Below, piece after piece: positions 53,074 to 61,012 of a DNA stretch of 64,000 nt. The notes below the pieces were generated by a model. That model saw only the letters and a list, made by a program, of their open reading frames with translations. It had not been told where the DNA came from and did not search any database. How positions within the stretch are numbered: position 1 is the first letter of the stretch; the number at the start of each line of letters is the position of its first letter. Position numbers and translations under genes: made by a program. Source of the stretch: Bacillus sp. Cs-700. GTDB lineage: Bacteria; Bacillota; Bacilli; Bacillales; Guptibacillaceae. The DNA is taken from contig NZ_CP041063.1 in assembly GCF_011082085.1 (NCBI RefSeq), positions 558,001 to 622,000 of the forward strand, in the 5' to 3' direction.

Positions 53074-53626
53074 GCAGGTTGAAGTAGATCAAGAATATAA
53101 AACCATCTCCTTTTCTGAAGTGAGCTTTGAAAGGGATGTACATATGATCCACCGGTGGATGAACGAAGCACATGTTTACCCTTTCTGGCAATTAAATATA
53201 TCGTTAGAAGCCTATAAACATCATTTGCTGAAAGCATTAAGAGACAAGCATCAAACCCTTTACCTCGGTCTTATAAACAACGAACCGATCAGCTACTGGG
53301 AAGCTTACTGGGTAGAAGGAGATATCATGGAAGGCATGTATGAAAACAAACCTTTTGACCAGGGTATCCATCTCTTAATTGGAGAAACAGACTTCCTTGG
53401 TAAGGGATACGCCCTTCCACTTCTTCGCGAAATGGTGTCTTTACAACTGAAGGAAAAGCGGACAAAAAGAGTGATTGCTGAACCAGACATTCGAAATAAG
53501 AAAATGATTCATGTCTTTGAAAAATGTGGCTTTCGACCGCAAAAACCGATTAAGCTTCCTGATAAAACAGGGTTATTAATGTTTTGTGAACGTGATCAGT
53601 TTGAAAGGAAGTGGGGGAATGAGTGA
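53063..53626 (+). CDS. Siderophore N-hydroxy-diamine O/N-acetyltransferase, IucB/RhbD-like
   Basis: This 187-residue GNAT protein of the AlcB/IucB type contains the family pattern HRWMNEAHVYPFWQLN, GIHLLIGETDFLGKGYA, and IAEPDIRNKKMIHVFEKCGF. It transfers acetyl from acetyl-CoA to the hydroxylamine of N-hydroxy-1,3-diaminopropane, giving the hydroxamate. It overlaps both neighbours (11 and 8 nt), so translation is coupled. A paralogue with the same signature lies at 56804. Confidence 0.9.
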   Translation: MAHKQVEVDQEYKTISFSEVSFERDVHMIHRWMNEAHVYPFWQLNISLEAYKHHLLKALRDKHQTLYLGLINNEPISYWEAYWVEGDIMEGMYENKPFDQGIHLLIGETDFLGKGYALPLLREMVSLQLKEKRTKRVIAEPDIRNKKMIHVFEKCGFRPQKPIKLPDKTGLLMFCERDQFERKWGNE

Positions 53627-54941
53627 ACACATATATGATGCCATTGGTATAGGGATTGGACCATTTAACCTTGGTTTTGCTGCCTTAACTGAAGAGCTTG
53701 ATGAGATAGACGTACTTCTGTTTGATCGGAAAGAAGCGTTTGATTGGCATCCTGGAATGCTGATTGATGGAACCACTTTACAAGTACCATTTTTCGCTGA
53801 TCTAGTCAGCATGGCGGACGTAAAAAACAAATTTACCTTTCTAAACTACTTACAAATTCATAAACGTTTGTACCACTTTTACTTTTTAGAAAAGTTTCAT
53901 ATCCCAAGAAAAGAATACAATCACTACTGTCAGTGGGTATCTAAGCAACTTGATTCATGCCGATTTGGTTATGAGGTGATGGATGTTTCATTCCATCAAT
54001 CAGAAGAAGGAGCATCCGTTTATCTTGTTCAAGTTCAGCATATTAGGACATTAAAAATTGAAACGTTTCTAACAAAACATCTCGTAATGGGGATAGGTTC
54101 AATACCTTCCGTTCCTAAACCATTCAAATCTAAGCTCAGTGAAACGGTTTTTCATTCATCAGATTATATGGAGAAGAAAGAGCGAGCTGTACAAAGAAAA
54201 TCTATTGCTGTCGTCGGCTCAGGTCAGAGTGCAGCTGAGATCTTTTTAGACTTAGCCAAAGAGCAGGAAAAGCACCATTATGAATTAAGCTGGTATACAA
54301 GATCAAACGGCTTTTTCCCAATGGAATACTCAAAACTCGGTCTTGAATATTTTTCACCAGATTATACGGACTTCTTTTACAGACTTTCACAAGAAAAGAA
54401 AGATGGGCTACTGAAAGATCAAGCATTGCTTTATAAAGGAATTAGCGCTGAAACGATTTCTGAAATCTATGATGTCTTATATGAGCAATCAATTGGAAAT
54501 CAACAGCCGGCTCATCTACAAGCAATGAGCGAAATAAACCATCTGGAGATGAATGGAGGGGTATGCAACGTGCAAGGTAATCATACCGTGACAGAGGAAT
54601 CGTTTGATTTCGAATCTGAAGTCATCATTCTAGGTACTGGCTACACACAGAACATGCCAAGTTTTTTACCGGAATCCCTATTAAATAAAGATCCAAAAAA
54701 TCGTCTTGAAATTACAGAAGATTATCGTTTGAGTACGAAACATAACAGTGAAAATGAGATTTTTGTCCAAAACGGTGAACTTCACACTCATGGGGTTGGG
54801 GCACCAGATCTTGGGCTTGGCGCTCATCGAAACGCCGTTATTATTAATCAGATCGCTAAGAAAGAAGTGTATCCCGTTCAGTCAAAAAATGTCTTCCAAT
54901 CTTTTGGAGTGGTCAAAAATCCTGCATTAATAACTAATTAG
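53619..54941 (+). CDS. Diamine N-monooxygenase (IucD/RhbE-like)
   Basis: This 440-residue FAD/NADPH enzyme N-hydroxylates the free amine of 1,3-diaminopropane. The FAD motif is AIGIGIGPFNLGFAAL at the N-terminus, the NADPH motif is IAVVGSGQSAAEIFLDL near residue 200, and the late LGTGY motif is in VIILGTGYTQNMPSF. ATG 53619 is chosen: it overlaps the acetyltransferase stop and puts the FAD motif at the N-terminus, as in IucD. It is in the rhbE position. Confidence 0.92.
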   Translation: MSEHIYDAIGIGIGPFNLGFAALTEELDEIDVLLFDRKEAFDWHPGMLIDGTTLQVPFFADLVSMADVKNKFTFLNYLQIHKRLYHFYFLEKFHIPRKEYNHYCQWVSKQLDSCRFGYEVMDVSFHQSEEGASVYLVQVQHIRTLKIETFLTKHLVMGIGSIPSVPKPFKSKLSETVFHSSDYMEKKERAVQRKSIAVVGSGQSAAEIFLDLAKEQEKHHYELSWYTRSNGFFPMEYSKLGLEYFSPDYTDFFYRLSQEKKDGLLKDQALLYKGISAETISEIYDVLYEQSIGNQQPAHLQAMSEINHLEMNGGVCNVQGNHTVTEESFDFESEVIILGTGYTQNMPSFLPESLLNKDPKNRLEITEDYRLSTKHNSENEIFVQNGELHTHGVGAPDLGLGAHRNAVIINQIAKKEVYPVQSKNVFQSFGVVKNPALITN

Positions 54942-54955
54942 AAAGTGGTGAACGT

Positions 54956-56758
54956 ATGTATTCTAATAAAGACTTAGATCATATTTTATCAAAAGAAAGC
55001 TGGGAATTAGTGAATCATAAACTTCTCGCAAAAATGCTTTCAGAATTTATGTACGAGGACATGATTACACCTGAAATCATTCAAGAACAAGAAAACCATA
55101 GCCTTTTTGAACTACGTGTTTCTACCAAGAAAACCTATCAGTTCCGTGCAGTGACTCGTCTTTTTGATAGCTTTGCTGTTGACTGGAAATCGATTCGTCT
55201 CTTTTCTGACGGTAAGGAAGAGAAGGGTGGAGCAATCGCTTTTCTTCTTGATCTTCAACCACTGATCGGCATGTCGGCTGAAACGACAGCTCACTTAATA
55301 AAAGAAATCAATCAAACACTTATTGCAGATGCTCATCTGTTATCAAATCGCGTCTCCTCGGATGAGTTAGTTGAGGAAGACTATGCTAGATTAGAAGGTT
55401 ATATGACCGGTCATCCGTGGATCACCTATAACAAAGGTCGAATAGGATTTGGCTACGATGATTACTTGGACTTTGCGCCTGAACATCAGAATGAAGTAAA
55501 ACTTGCCTGGATCGGGGTTAGTCGTGAAATAAGCTCTTTTCAATCTGTTAAAGATCTAACTGTTGATGAGCTCATAAACGCTGAGTTAAGTGTTGGTGAC
55601 CTTCGAAAATTCAAAGAGATTTTACTATCCAAAAGGCTAGATCCCACCACCTTTCTCTTCATGCCAGTTCATGAGTGGCAGTGGAAAAATGTCTTGATTC
55701 AGAGTTTCGCAGAACAAATTGCGAATCAAACGATTGTACCGCTGGGCGAATCTAGTGACTCTTACCTTCCTCAGCAATCCATTCGGACGTTTGTTAACCA
55801 ATCTCATCGAGACAAGCATCATGTTAAGTTGCCAATGAGCATTTTAAATACTCTCGTCTATCGGGGCTTACCTACAGAACGAACGCTCATTGCACCGCAA
55901 ATCACCGAATTTATAAAAGGAATCTATGAAAACGACTCCTTCTTAAGAGATGAATGTAACGTTATCTTACCAGGTGAAATTGCTAGTATTAACGTTGAGC
56001 ATCCTTATTATCAAAGGCTTCAACATGCACCGTATCAATACAAAGAAATGCTTGGGGTTATATTTCGTGAAAGCATCTATACATACCTTGAAGAAGGGGA
56101 ACAAGCCATTACATTAGCGGCATTGCTATATGAAGACCATAATGGTAAAGCCTATATTCAAAGTATGATTGAAAAATCAGGTATTTCGACGCAAGAATGG
56201 ATAACGCAATTTCTTGATGTCACGATGAAACCGTTACTGCATTATTTGTACCAGTATGGCACGGTCTTCTCGCCGCATGGACAAAATACCATTCTCGTAT
56301 TAAAAGAGTATAAACCGTGCCGACTAGCTGTAAAAGATTTCGTTGATGACGTTAATATTAGTGATCAACCATTCGAGGAGTTAAGTAGACTGCCGCACGA
56401 GTTAAAAATGGTTCTTCGCAGTGAACCACCAGAGGGACTTACGCAATTTATTTTCACAGGTTTGTTTATTTGTCACCTTCGCTATTTAACAAATATTTTA
56501 GAGCATAACGAAATGATGCATGAAGATGAGTTTTGGAAGATTCTCGCAGAAACGATTCATGCCTATCAAGCTAGGTTTCCTCACTTAAAAGAGCGGTTTA
56601 AGCTGTTTGATTTCTTCCAACCATCATTTACGAAGCTATGTCTCAATCGAAATCGAATGGTCCAAGAAGGTTATTCGTCTGGAGATGATCGGCCACACGC
56701 ATCAGAATTCGGTAATGTAAACAATGTACTTTCTTATTATAAAGGAGTAACAAACTAG
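54956..56758 (+). CDS. IucA/IucC-family NIS siderophore synthetase, copy 2 (RhbF-like)
   Basis: This is a second NIS synthetase of 600 residues with FMPVHEWQWKNVLIQ, QQSIRTFVNQSHRDKHHVK, LPMSILNTLVYRGLPTERT and the C-terminal FSPHGQNTILVLKEY. With the copy at 51304 it would couple the two arms to the two outer carboxyls of citrate, giving a dihydroxamate. It is in the rhbF position, 14 nt after the monooxygenase gene. A terminator-like hairpin follows. Confidence 0.92.
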   Translation: MYSNKDLDHILSKESWELVNHKLLAKMLSEFMYEDMITPEIIQEQENHSLFELRVSTKKTYQFRAVTRLFDSFAVDWKSIRLFSDGKEEKGGAIAFLLDLQPLIGMSAETTAHLIKEINQTLIADAHLLSNRVSSDELVEEDYARLEGYMTGHPWITYNKGRIGFGYDDYLDFAPEHQNEVKLAWIGVSREISSFQSVKDLTVDELINAELSVGDLRKFKEILLSKRLDPTTFLFMPVHEWQWKNVLIQSFAEQIANQTIVPLGESSDSYLPQQSIRTFVNQSHRDKHHVKLPMSILNTLVYRGLPTERTLIAPQITEFIKGIYENDSFLRDECNVILPGEIASINVEHPYYQRLQHAPYQYKEMLGVIFRESIYTYLEEGEQAITLAALLYEDHNGKAYIQSMIEKSGISTQEWITQFLDVTMKPLLHYLYQYGTVFSPHGQNTILVLKEYKPCRLAVKDFVDDVNISDQPFEELSRLPHELKMVLRSEPPEGLTQFIFTGLFICHLRYLTNILEHNEMMHEDEFWKILAETIHAYQARFPHLKERFKLFDFFQPSFTKLCLNRNRMVQEGYSSGDDRPHASEFGNVNNVLSYYKGVTN

Positions 56759-56764
56759 CAGAGT

Positions 56765-56788
56765 GACGGGGTTCATCCCCGTCCTTTT
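56765..56788 (+). terminator. Terminator/attenuator inside the siderophore gene cluster
   Basis: GACGGGG (56765-56771) pairs perfectly with CCCCGTC (56777-56783) around TTCAT, followed by CTTTT. The next gene starts 20 nt later in the same direction, so it probably reduces rather than abolishes read-through. Confidence 0.65.
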
Positions 56789-56803
56789 AAGGAGATAAGT
56801 AGA

Positions 56804-57448
56804 ATGGCTTTCGAATGCTCGATCACCGAAGAATCCGGTCGAATCATTTCTTTTCGACCGGTGATTGAAGAAGATGTTCCTATCTTACACGAATGGATGC
56901 ATCAGAAACACATTTACCCATTTTGGAAGTTAAATTTGCCACTTGAAGAAATTAGAGTCTGGGTTAAAAACTCGATTTCATCACCACATAAGCGCGTTTT
57001 CATGGGCTATCTGAATGATGAACCTGTTTGTTACGTCATTGGATACGATGTGAGGCAAGACCCAATAAGACATTTTTATTCGAATGAACCAAGAGATATG
57101 GGAATGCATTTGCTTATAGGACCTAGACGACTATTAAACAAGGAAGATGGTGAAACAATTATAAGAGCCATGACATTGTTTTTGTTTGAAAAGTTTGGTG
57201 CAAATAGATTGATTGGAGAACCTGATTATCGAAATAGAATCGTCATTCCAATACTTAAAAAACTTGGTGCAAATGTGGTAAAAGAAATTCAAATGAATGA
57301 AAAAAGAGCAAAACTCGTGATTGCGAATCGGAATGAGTTTCATCAAAATATAAATGACTCCACCATCACTTTATCTTTTCAACTATTAAATTCCCCAGAT
57401 GATGAGTGGGAAATATTTAATGAGGCGGTCAAACATGGATCGTCGTAA
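56804..57448 (+). CDS. Second IucB/AlcB-type siderophore acyltransferase
   Basis: This 214-residue GNAT protein shares with the RhbD-like protein the pattern HEWMHQKHIYPFWKLN, MGMHLLIGPRRLL and IGEPDYRNRIVIPILKKLG, so it is a paralogue. A C-terminal extension of about 30 residues (after VIANRNEF) has no counterpart in the first copy. It lies behind the internal hairpin and has no equivalent in rhbABCDEF. It may acylate a second position or use another acyl-CoA, as the lipid acyltransferase of rhizobactin 1021 does. That is inference. Confidence 0.8.
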   Translation: MAFECSITEESGRIISFRPVIEEDVPILHEWMHQKHIYPFWKLNLPLEEIRVWVKNSISSPHKRVFMGYLNDEPVCYVIGYDVRQDPIRHFYSNEPRDMGMHLLIGPRRLLNKEDGETIIRAMTLFLFEKFGANRLIGEPDYRNRIVIPILKKLGANVVKEIQMNEKRAKLVIANRNEFHQNINDSTITLSFQLLNSPDDEWEIFNEAVKHGSS

Positions 57449-58473: not shown

Positions 58474-59457
58474 ATGAAGTATCGACAGTTAGGACAAACC
58501 GACTTAAAGGTAAGTGAAGTTAGTTTTGGAACATGGGCGATCGGCGGAGCGTGGGGTAAAACAAATGACGCCCAAGCTCTCGAATCACTTCAATACGCGA
58601 TCGATGCCGGGGTTAACTTCTTTGATACAGCAGATGTATACGGTCACGGTCATAGTGAAAAACTTCTAGCGAAAGCGACAAAAGGACAGGAAGATAAGAT
58701 CCATATTGCAACTAAATTTTGTCGTGCAGGAGATATCCATGATCCAGCTACTTACTCTGAAGAAAGTGTGCGTTCATATTGTGAAGCTAGCTTAAAACGA
58801 TTTGAACGCGATCAGATTGATCTGTTTCAAATCCACTGTCCACCAATTGAAATACTAAAAGATGGAGCCGTATTTCAAGTATTAGATAAGTTAAAAGCAG
58901 AAGGAAAAATCCGTTATTACGGTGTAAGTGTCGAAACCATTGAAGAAGGGCTCCTATGTCTTGACTATCCAGGCGTAAGCACATTGCAAGTTATTTTCAA
59001 CCTTTTTAGACAAAAACCTTTAGAAGAGTTATTTCCTAAAGCGCATGACCAAGGGGTTGGGATCCTTACTCGTGTGCCCCTTGCAAGTGGTTTATTAACT
59101 GGGAAATTCAAGAAAAACTCATCATTCGAAGAAGACGATCATCGTCACTTTAATCGAAACGGAGAAGCCTTTAATGTTGGGGAAACCTTTGCAGGCATTG
59201 AATTTGAGAAGGGTGTTGAATTAAGCAATGAAATCAACTGGATTGCCCGAGATCGAGAGAGCATGACAACTGCTGCACTCAAATGGATTCTTGAACATAA
59301 AGAAGTTTCTTGCGTTATTCCGGGCTTTAAAAATGTTAATCAGGTAAAACAAAACCTTAAAGCAGTTGAAGTTCCTGATTTTACGAAAGAAGAGATTGAG
59401 AAGCTTAAAGCGTTCTATGAGCAAGAAGTTCATGGGCTAATTAGAGGAGCTTATTAA
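58474..59457 (+). CDS. Aldo/keto reductase
   Basis: This NADPH-dependent TIM-barrel oxidoreductase of 327 residues has the active-site tetrad positions Asp and Tyr in FFDTADVYGHGHSE, Lys in IHIATKFCRAG and His in LFQIHCPP. The C-terminal cofactor motif reads VIPGFKNVNQVKQNL. It resembles the YhdN/YccK general stress type. The binding site is TGGAGGG. It is followed 22 nt later by the OsmC-family gene, probably in one transcript, so a role in oxidative or carbonyl stress is plausible. Confidence 0.9.
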   Translation: MKYRQLGQTDLKVSEVSFGTWAIGGAWGKTNDAQALESLQYAIDAGVNFFDTADVYGHGHSEKLLAKATKGQEDKIHIATKFCRAGDIHDPATYSEESVRSYCEASLKRFERDQIDLFQIHCPPIEILKDGAVFQVLDKLKAEGKIRYYGVSVETIEEGLLCLDYPGVSTLQVIFNLFRQKPLEELFPKAHDQGVGILTRVPLASGLLTGKFKKNSSFEEDDHRHFNRNGEAFNVGETFAGIEFEKGVELSNEINWIARDRESMTTAALKWILEHKEVSCVIPGFKNVNQVKQNLKAVEVPDFTKEEIEKLKAFYEQEVHGLIRGAY

Positions 59458-59479
59458 ATAGAGGAAAGGAGTTTTAAAG

Positions 59480-59944
59480 ATGGAAAAGCCAATTGAAATT
59501 GCGAATATTCGAATTGAGCAGGATAAAGATAAAAGCCGGCGAGCTTACATCGCTAATTTCAAAGAACCTATACACTATGGGGTACATGGTGGTGTTAAAG
59601 ACTTTTACCAAGCCACACCAGAGGTAGAACAACCCTCGACCCTCGATCATATTGTTGCAGCAGCTGGCGGCTGACTAACCGGTACATTATCCGGTGCGCT
59701 GGAGGCGCGCCATATACCAACTTATCCAAATAAGGTATCAGGAAAGTTTGAAGGAATCATTGAAGCACCAGATGGGGTTCTTAAAATCACAAAAATCCGC
59801 TGTCATTATAAGTTAATTATTCCTTCTGAGAAGCGGAATGCAGCTGAAAGAGCGCTTAATGTGTTTGAACGAGGATGTCCTGTAGCACAAACGTTAAAAG
59901 GCTCCGTCGCTTTTGAACATGATTGGGAGATTATAGAAGAATAA
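59480..59944 (+). CDS. OsmC-family peroxidase-like selenoprotein (in-frame TGA read as selenocysteine)
   Basis: The frame from ATG 59480 (site AAAGGAG) codes 64 residues, meets TGA at 59672-59674, then continues open for 89 codons to TAA at 59942-59944, giving 154 residues. OsmC/Ohr proteins have two cysteines: one in a helix after Ala-Ala-Gly-Gly and one in a later Cys-Pro-Val motif. Here TGA stands in place of the first (VAAAGG, residue 65, then LTGTLSGALE), and the second is intact at Cys133 (FERGCPVAQTLKG). The part after TGA is fully OsmC-like with no other lesion. A SECIS-like hairpin follows at the right distance. OsmC-like selenoproteins are known in bacteria. A fresh nonsense mutation is the alternative. 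Confidence 0.82.
59672..59711 (+). promoter_or_regulatory. Bacterial SECIS-like element with selenocysteine UGA
   Basis: After the UGA (59672-59674), GGTGCGC (59693-59699) pairs with GCGCGCC (59705-59711) in a 7-bp GC-rich stem with one G-U pair. The loop TGGAG has its first G 27 nt after the UGA. Bacterial SECIS elements carry a small loop with an early G about 16-37 nt downstream of UGA, so position and form fit. Confidence 0.8.
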
Positions 59945-60124: not shown

Positions 60125-61012
60125 TTATTTCAGCTCAACAACCGGTTCAGCTAGATTAATAAACTCTTTCACAGCAAAAGGCAAATATTTGTTTCGTTTC
60201 CAAATCAATCCGAGTTCTAAGTTTAAATTAGAATGTCTAAGCTTTAACGTTTTAATCCTCTCATTATGAATTGAATTGGCAATTTTACTCGGTAGAAGTG
60301 CAATACCCAGTTTCGCTTCTACCATTTCAATCATAAAATCCTTTTGCGAGCTCTGACATACGATGTTAGGATAAAATTCATTCTTCGAGCATTCTTCTAG
60401 AATTCGATCATATAAAGTGAAATCATCTCGATACAAAATAAAGGGCTCATATTCGAGATCAGCAAGGTGGATTTCAGAGTACACTGCTAACGGATGCTCA
60501 TCATGAACGATTAACATGAGTGGATCTTTAATAACCTGTACTGCTTCAAAACTACTATTTTTTAAAGGTGTGTTACAGATCAATCCAATATCAAGAGAAC
60601 CGTCATCAACGCCTTGTTTTATCATTTTGGACCCTACTTCAGTAAGTAGGATTTCTACTGTAGGATAGAGTGCTTTAAACTGACTGATTATCTTTGAAAA
60701 AAAAGCTGCACCGATGATAGGAGGGATTCCGATTTTGATTTCCCCCTTTTTTAATTCTGTAATATCCGAAAGCTCTGCTGTGAGGTTTTGAAAGGCATGA
60801 AGAACATGCTGAGCATTGACCAAAACAGCCTTACCAGCATCAGTCAATTCTAATTGCTTAGAACGATAGAAGAGGGGGATGCCAAGCTCTGTTTCTAGAT
60901 TCTTGATAGCTTTACTAATCGATGGTTGTGACACATGAAGTGTCGATGCTGCTTTTGTAAAACTTAGCTGTCTCGCCACTTCTGAAAAATACTCAAGATG
61001 ACGAATCTCCAA
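60125..61012 (-). CDS. LysR-family regulator, divergent from malate synthase G
   Basis: The 295-residue protein has the LysR helix-turn-helix at residues 1-60 (SFTKAASTLHVSQPSISKAIKNLE) and an effector domain from about residue 90 (IKIGIPPIIGAAFFSKII). It resembles the CzcR/CitR/YwbI group. It is transcribed away from the malate synthase G gene, with a perfect inverted repeat between them, so control of that gene is likely. Effector unknown; an intermediate of C2/C4 acid metabolism would fit. Confidence 0.85.
   Translation of the reverse strand: MEIRHLEYFSEVARQLSFTKAASTLHVSQPSISKAIKNLETELGIPLFYRSKQLELTDAGKAVLVNAQHVLHAFQNLTAELSDITELKKGEIKIGIPPIIGAAFFSKIISQFKALYPTVEILLTEVGSKMIKQGVDDGSLDIGLICNTPLKNSSFEAVQVIKDPLMLIVHDEHPLAVYSEIHLADLEYEPFILYRDDFTLYDRILEECSKNEFYPNIVCQSSQKDFMIEMVEAKLGIALLPSKIANSIHNERIKTLKLRHSNLNLELGLIWKRNKYLPFAVKEFINLAEPVVELK

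Follow-up and report, generated by a model that had tools for sequence, protein, structure and literature searches.

An in-frame TGA in an OsmC-family gene of Bacillus sp. Cs-700: evidence for a SelB-decoded, apparently selenocysteine-only subfamily

Based on a computational analysis of a 64,000-nucleotide stretch of Bacillus sp. Cs-700 (positions 558001-622000 of its single-contig, 4.30-Mb genome, G000; hereafter, the window), we propose that the product of the gene at 59480-59944 of the window is a selenoprotein with the Ohr/OsmC fold, in which the in-frame TGA at codon 65 would be read by SelB as selenocysteine (Sec). We hold this with high confidence, which covers both the decoding and the fold; our best reading is that the gene represents a new, apparently Sec-only OsmC subfamily. 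An initial annotation, made from the letters of the window alone, had proposed that a TGA replaces the first (peroxidatic) cysteine of an otherwise intact OsmC-like frame, and both points are borne out: the TGA is the single internal stop among the 154 residues before TAA, the read-through protein matches Pfam OsmC (PF02566) over residues 51-147 (47.5 bits; cut-off 27.5), and position 65 aligns with cysteine in four PDB alignments and in 4/5 OsmC-family paralogues of the same genome. The features are collected in Table 1.

Table 1. Features of the OsmC-family locus (positions are those of the window)
Feature	Position	Strand	Basis
OsmC-family selenoprotein gene (predicted)	59480..59944	+	154 codons + TAA, in-frame TGA codon 65; Pfam OsmC match, predicted fold
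TGA codon 65, inferred selenocysteine at the peroxidatic-Cys position	59672..59674	+	TGA in relatives; alignment to OsmC/1ml8
SECIS hairpin (predicted), 18 nt 3' of TGA	59693..59711	+	stem 59693-59699/59705-59711, loop 59700-59704 UGGAG; fold, near-frozen codons, pairing counts
Cys133 codon TGT, expected resolving Cys within CPVAQT	59876..59878	+	conservation; aligned with second OsmC Cys
Ribosome-binding sequence AGGAAAGGAG, 8 nt 5' of ATG	59462..59471	+	inferred from sequence
Aldo/keto reductase-like gene (presumed)	58474..59457	+	22 nt 5' of the OsmC gene
LysR-type regulator-like gene (presumed), convergent neighbor	60125..61012	-	open reading frame listing
16-bp hairpin between convergent genes, just 3' of TAA	59947..59982	.	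terminator-like on minus strand

Decoding of the in-frame UGA

A standard open reading frame listing shows only 64 aa at this locus, as the initial annotation had expected of ordinary annotation, and gene finders halting at the TGA would truncate the protein. Such a listing is what a genuine stop would also give, the gene then being a pseudogene or encoding a 64-residue protein. The frame is otherwise without stops, and the chance of 89 open codons after the TGA at this base composition is 0.2%. The ratio of nonsynonymous to synonymous substitution rates (dN/dS) 3' of the TGA is 0.06-0.15 against nine near relatives, and 5' of it 0.05-0.10 (three relatives only, dS being saturated in the other six of the nine); the post-TGA codons are under purifying selection, as expected of translated sequence. 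Since, in addition, the TGA is shared by 59/59 relatives, down to 58% identity, the interrupted frame is not a matter of chance. We rejected a pseudogene or real stop on conservation, selection and the link to selB described below, and regard it as extremely improbable.

The initial annotation had reasoned that the organism must carry selA, selB, selC and selD, and had set a lack of selB or selC as refuting its reading; all four were found, clustered within 8 kb. The tRNA-Sec gene (selC; 357692-357784, 59.4 bits) is the sole one of 25 matches above the cut-off and is called by ARAGORN as Sec with anticodon tca, while two lower-scoring matches (L002, L005) sit among ordinary tRNA genes by ARAGORN. 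It is followed by selB (358294-360147, 359 bits; sole one of seven matches above cut-off), selD (362723-363649, 410.6 bits; sole one of five), which itself carries one in-frame TGA, in GGUGCK, and selA (364068-365429, 563.6 bits; single match). Control genomes gave weak matches to tRNA-Sec, selB and selD in 14/14 cases, and matches above the cut-off in 5/14, 2/14 and 2/14, respectively. Of additional note, a phosphonate-type ATP-binding cassette (ABC) transporter, PhnD/E/C-like, lies between selB and selD, outside the window (G000:C1:360184-362585 = L087:10184-12585). Its PhnD-like binding protein scores 186.8 bits with the NCBI "putative selenate ABC transporter" model, below the cut-off of 250, and 224.1 bits with the general phosphate/phosphite/phosphonate model (cut-off 112). 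The transporter may be a selenium importer, a guess from its position.

Carriage of the gene goes together with selB. In a sample of 249 genomes of the order, selB (E <= 1e-70) is present in 115, including 30/30 carriers of the gene; the chance of this association is 8e-12 if genomes are taken as independent, and counting by genus (gene in 16/105, selB in 51/105) the chance is 2e-6, neither value being corrected for kinship. Among named carrier genomes, some of which are probably shared with the 249-genome sample, selB was found in 50/50 tested. This test covered 50/59 loci; those outside it are L023, which is the second locus of the L021 assembly, and L027, L031, L040, L051, L053, L057, L059 and L062. 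Two selB matches above the cut-off occur in each of G787 (L017) and G826 (L065), and also in G197 of the order sample, which is listed at 8% contamination.

Just downstream of the UGA, the messenger is predicted to form a selenocysteine insertion sequence (SECIS) hairpin, in which, counting the T of TGA as 1, positions 22-28 pair with 34-40 around a UGGNN loop. A stem-loop just after the UGA with a small, G-containing apical loop is what has been described for bacterial SECIS elements (PMC1088965), and the hairpin fits this description. The inner six pairs (23-28/34-39) form in all 78 distinct segments bar one A.C mismatch, and the outer pair 22-40 in 34/78; the hairpin is also present in the 40%-identical L126. 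Codon choice within it is nearly frozen. In 77 unique genes (the window gene, 58 named and 18 unnamed ones, after removal of the broken L067, L122 and L128, of L094, which equals the window gene, and of exact duplicates), Ala73 is GCG in 75/77, Leu74 is CTG in 77/77 and Ala76 is GCG in 75/75, the other two genes having Val, although the background shares of these codons are 0.27-0.28. The entropy ratio is 0.00-0.09 at codons 73, 74 and 76, followed by Arg77 (0.35) and Gly72 (0.38) of the same stem, versus 0.53-1.06 at all other codons with >=90% amino-acid identity. On sequence grounds, these near-frozen synonymous sites are stronger evidence for a SECIS element than fold energy or covariation.

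The same hairpin bears on a rival decoding, with Trp inserted at the UGA or near-cognate readthrough taking place instead of Sec insertion. While the frame would be open whatever residue was inserted, near-frozen synonymous codons just after the UGA, a tca-anticodon gene called as tRNA-Sec, selB in all carriers tested, and cysteine at this position in all four paralogue alignments extending to it as well as in OsmC and 1ml8 all argue against it, and we judge such a reading very improbable. SelB decoding, as the initial annotation had proposed, is strongly supported by the machinery, the selB link and the hairpin.

Relatives and the search for a cysteine form

Relatives were sought with one genome per species, using the window protein with Cys at position 65 as the query; since the query bears Cys, the confirmation step is, if anything, biased toward Cys forms. 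The scan requires an exact short peptide, so distant Cys forms would escape; 352 stretches matched and 59 were confirmed. In all 59, which range from 95% down to 58% identity to the window protein, the aligned codon is TGA; TGC or TGT, which had been set beforehand as evidence against Sec, occurs in none. The second cysteine, Cys133, which the initial annotation had taken as intact, is kept in 58/59, the exception (L067) being frameshifted upstream of it. The closest named relative (95%) is Pseudalkalibacillus hwajinpoensis AmN0-1, now Guptibacillus hwajinpoensis at NCBI, in the family Guptibacillaceae instead of Bacillaceae, the family named in the initial annotation. Titles of carrier records include Pseudalkalibacillus, Alkalihalobacillus, Litchfieldia, Virgibacillus, Cytobacillus, Planococcus, Fictibacillus, Alkalicoccus, Marinithermofilum and Melghirimyces, and the named genera fall in Guptibacillaceae, Caryophanaceae and Thermoactinomycetaceae among others.

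Wider samples gave the same picture. With a 14-member profile, the gene was found in 30/249 genomes of the order (E <= 1e-25), and 31/32 matched stretches have one TGA, the remaining one being the second piece of a broken copy in G085, with one TAA. It was found in 6/398 genomes of the phylum (E <= 1e-14), again with one TGA per stretch except for the G085 piece; the two samples overlap, G000 and G085 being in both. One genome of the phylum sample, G612, belongs to another class, its protein being 40% identical to that of the window (tblastn), and in that class the gene occurs in 3/154 genomes (E <= 1e-10), all with one TGA. Thus, no Cys form of the subfamily was found above these thresholds in the overlapping order, phylum and class samples, and among Cys relatives weaker than these limits only the five paralogues of the host's own genome were considered. 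Judging from these sequences, the gene apparently constitutes a distinct subfamily, so far in the Sec form only, in Bacilli and another class of the same phylum.

Two copies of the Sec-OsmC gene are present in some genomes: Marinithermofilum abyssi (L021, L023), and also G019 and G287. L027 (titled Chryseobacterium sp. ISL-80) and L057 (Pseudomonas sp. ISL-84) share neighbor clusters with Cytobacillus loci, and their record titles are probably wrong. Searches of 72,556 plasmid and 50,697 phage records (E <= 1e-3) gave no match, and none of the 15 viral stretches that fit the pattern encodes a relative; a plasmid, phage or viral origin was therefore rejected.

Fold, chemistry and comparison with known families

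The predicted fold of the window protein is that of OsmC, and its model matches OsmC structures at an identity of at most 20%. A PDB search with the single window sequence gave no match at E <= 0.001, and a search with a profile of 45 members returned five entries; in four PDB alignments, to OsmC 1ukk, 1nye and 1qwi and to 1ml8, Sec65 aligns with the first redox cysteine and Cys133 with the second. Both redox residues of the Ohr/OsmC superfamily, peroxidatic and resolving, would thus be present as Sec65 and Cys133. The host genome has five OsmC-family paralogues, all without TGA, of which L088 and L091 look to us Ohr-like. Codon 65 corresponds to Cys in L089, L090, L091 and L092, and the fifth alignment stops short of the site.

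We suggest the following mechanism. SelB with Sec-tRNA(Sec) would read UGA codon 65, aided by the in-gene SECIS hairpin, and translation would then continue to residue 154. Sec65 could attack a hydroperoxide, likely organic or lipid, or another electrophilic or disulfide substrate; Cys133 would resolve the resulting selenenic acid into an Se-S bond, which could then be reduced by a dithiol, for example a lipoylated protein or thioredoxin. We lean toward this catalytic step with a hydroperoxide as the substrate, by analogy with the family, and the "highly reactive peroxidase" of the initial annotation is likewise a conjecture from such analogy.

Several observations count against the decoding and the chemistry proposed here. 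The SECIS stem has the A.C mismatch in the deep relative L134, and the fold energy of the 51-nt segment of the window gene is only slightly more favorable than that of shuffled sequences (z -1.64; 15/200 as good). Covariation is thin: a double change from G-C to A-U at pair 27-35 is seen in L113 and L115, which have identical hairpin letters, and both-side changes in the 78 distinct segments fall in two cells, no more than in slid control structures, while a pair count on 14 SECIS segments found none. Because both-side changes are no commoner than in the slid controls, we do not rely on covariation. Two copies are frameshifted, one (L067; 6001-6240) lacking, relative to L065, 11 nt inside the hairpin that lie between GGCGCG direct repeats, the other (L122; genome G085) losing the frame about 26 codons 3' of the TGA; they may reflect either true decay or errors in sequencing. 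In carrier G809, a TGA lies within the selB match. The five AlphaFold models differ, with confidence of 94.4, 87.4, 84.1, 83.9 and 65.8. Finally, the Arg/Glu catalytic pair of Ohr, Arg19/Glu51 (PMC5962072), is not clearly present and could not be assigned with confidence.

The last point leaves room for an OsmC-fold selenoprotein decoded in the same way that handles disulfides, persulfides or metalloids rather than reducing hydroperoxides. Such an enzyme would resemble YhfA of E. coli, which we take 1ml8 to be. Tyr43, Asp56 and Arg77 are invariant in 77/77 genes, and His36 is nearly so (77/77 genes, although L134 and L135, which are deep relatives, have Gln), and no conserved neighbor indicates a substrate. 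The activity of YhfA is stated to be unknown (PMC5962072), and a protein of the organic-peroxide response is reported to lack thiol-dependent peroxidase activity (PMC4069020). Against this, both OsmC redox residues are retained, residue 20 is Arg in 71/77 and Lys in 6/77 unique genes, and the best-scoring NCBIfam model is that of OsmC peroxiredoxin (TIGR03562), though at 25.1 bits it lies below its cut-off of 85.8. We consider a non-peroxidase function possible, if the less favored view of the chemistry.

OsmC-like selenoproteins are themselves known, as the initial annotation stated when it called them an established but rare family; by model score and motif, the window gene is not of that family. 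We assume that the OsmC-like family of the Sargasso Sea is the one modeled by NCBIfam NF041052 (OsmC_like_Se), an OsmC-related (seleno)protein. This model matches 42/45 members of the present subfamily at E <= 0.01 (best 6.2e-7); the score of the window protein is 20.9 bits, well below the cut-off of 95. A marine-metagenome OsmC-like selenoprotein with the motif UxxT has been known since 2005 (PMC1088965, PMC2398784, PMC9312934, PMC13188914). Like it (PF02566/COG1765), the present protein is of the OsmC family, with one Sec at the Cys position of the same fold and a predicted bacterial SECIS element. Unlike it, the residue at U+3 (68) is Gly in 77/77, the window reading ULTG and the motif being ULxGT instead of UxxT (three sequences in Table 1 of PMC1088965); with the marine family, the comparison is by motif only. 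The present genes, moreover, come from cultured Bacilli and gave no Cys form in the searches made. It is therefore unlikely that the window gene belongs to the catalogued family.

Of the other known families, the protein shares the fold and both redox positions with OsmC (E. coli 1nye/1qwi, T. thermophilus 1ukk) and 1ml8, and differs from them in its low identity, in Sec for Cys, and in the family-specific blocks YGVHGGVK and PSTLDHIVAAAGGU. With Ohr (X. fastidiosa, P. aeruginosa, B. subtilis OhrB), it shares the fold and the two-residue redox pair, but not clearly the catalytic Arg/Glu pair. Titles and abstract openings on OsmC selenoproteins or selenocysteine and on Bacillales selenoproteins, subscription papers and preprints being outside this scope, do not report a Bacilli family, and the main text of PMC13188914 contains "OsmC" once and "Bacill" not at all. 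Most selenoproteins have Cys homologues (PMC2673044), and the Sargasso Sea search retained TGA candidates only with at least two Cys homologues (PMC1088965); since such a filter demands Cys homologues, an always-Sec family can escape detection. As a Sec enzyme whose fold is not that of thioredoxin, the protein would allow the gain of Sec over Cys to be probed, with the five TGA-free paralogues of the host as internal controls.

Retention of the Sec machinery and gene neighborhood

The most widespread bacterial selenoprotein is the formate dehydrogenase alpha subunit (PMC13188914). The host genome has four matches to it, none with a TGA, and its likely Sec site, assigned by the UHxP motif of PMC13188914, reads RYCQTP. 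Among 36 carrier genomes, which include G085 with its broken copy and G747, which is 59% complete, 9 have a match (E <= 1e-150) with a TGA at any position in it; at this limit, no such match was found in 27/36, and 5/36 have no match whatever. These counts are suggestive only, and make the OsmC-family selenoprotein a candidate reason for the retention of selA-selD in Bacilli without a Sec formate dehydrogenase. In a stronger version, the subfamily would be obligately Sec, with no Cys form in nature, and it and SelD, rather than the formate dehydrogenase that usually has this role, would chiefly account for the Sec machinery being kept in many Bacilli; this we put forward tentatively and think less likely than not.

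The gene neighborhood gives little indication of function. No neighbor cluster recurs in more than 10/60 loci, and the cluster of what we take, from its sequence, to be an aldo/keto reductase is found in 6/60; an operon clue to the substrate was rejected, the neighborhood not being conserved across the 60 loci. In the window, this gene is probably co-transcribed with the OsmC-family gene. Downstream, the convergent gene presumably encodes a LysR-type regulator. The initial annotation had placed a terminator after the TAA; the hairpin is there, but it scored as terminator-like on the minus strand only, toward the convergent gene. Further upstream (53586-57448) lie genes that we take, from their sequences, to be of siderophore type: lysine N6-hydroxylase-like, IucA/IucC-like and acetyltransferase-like.
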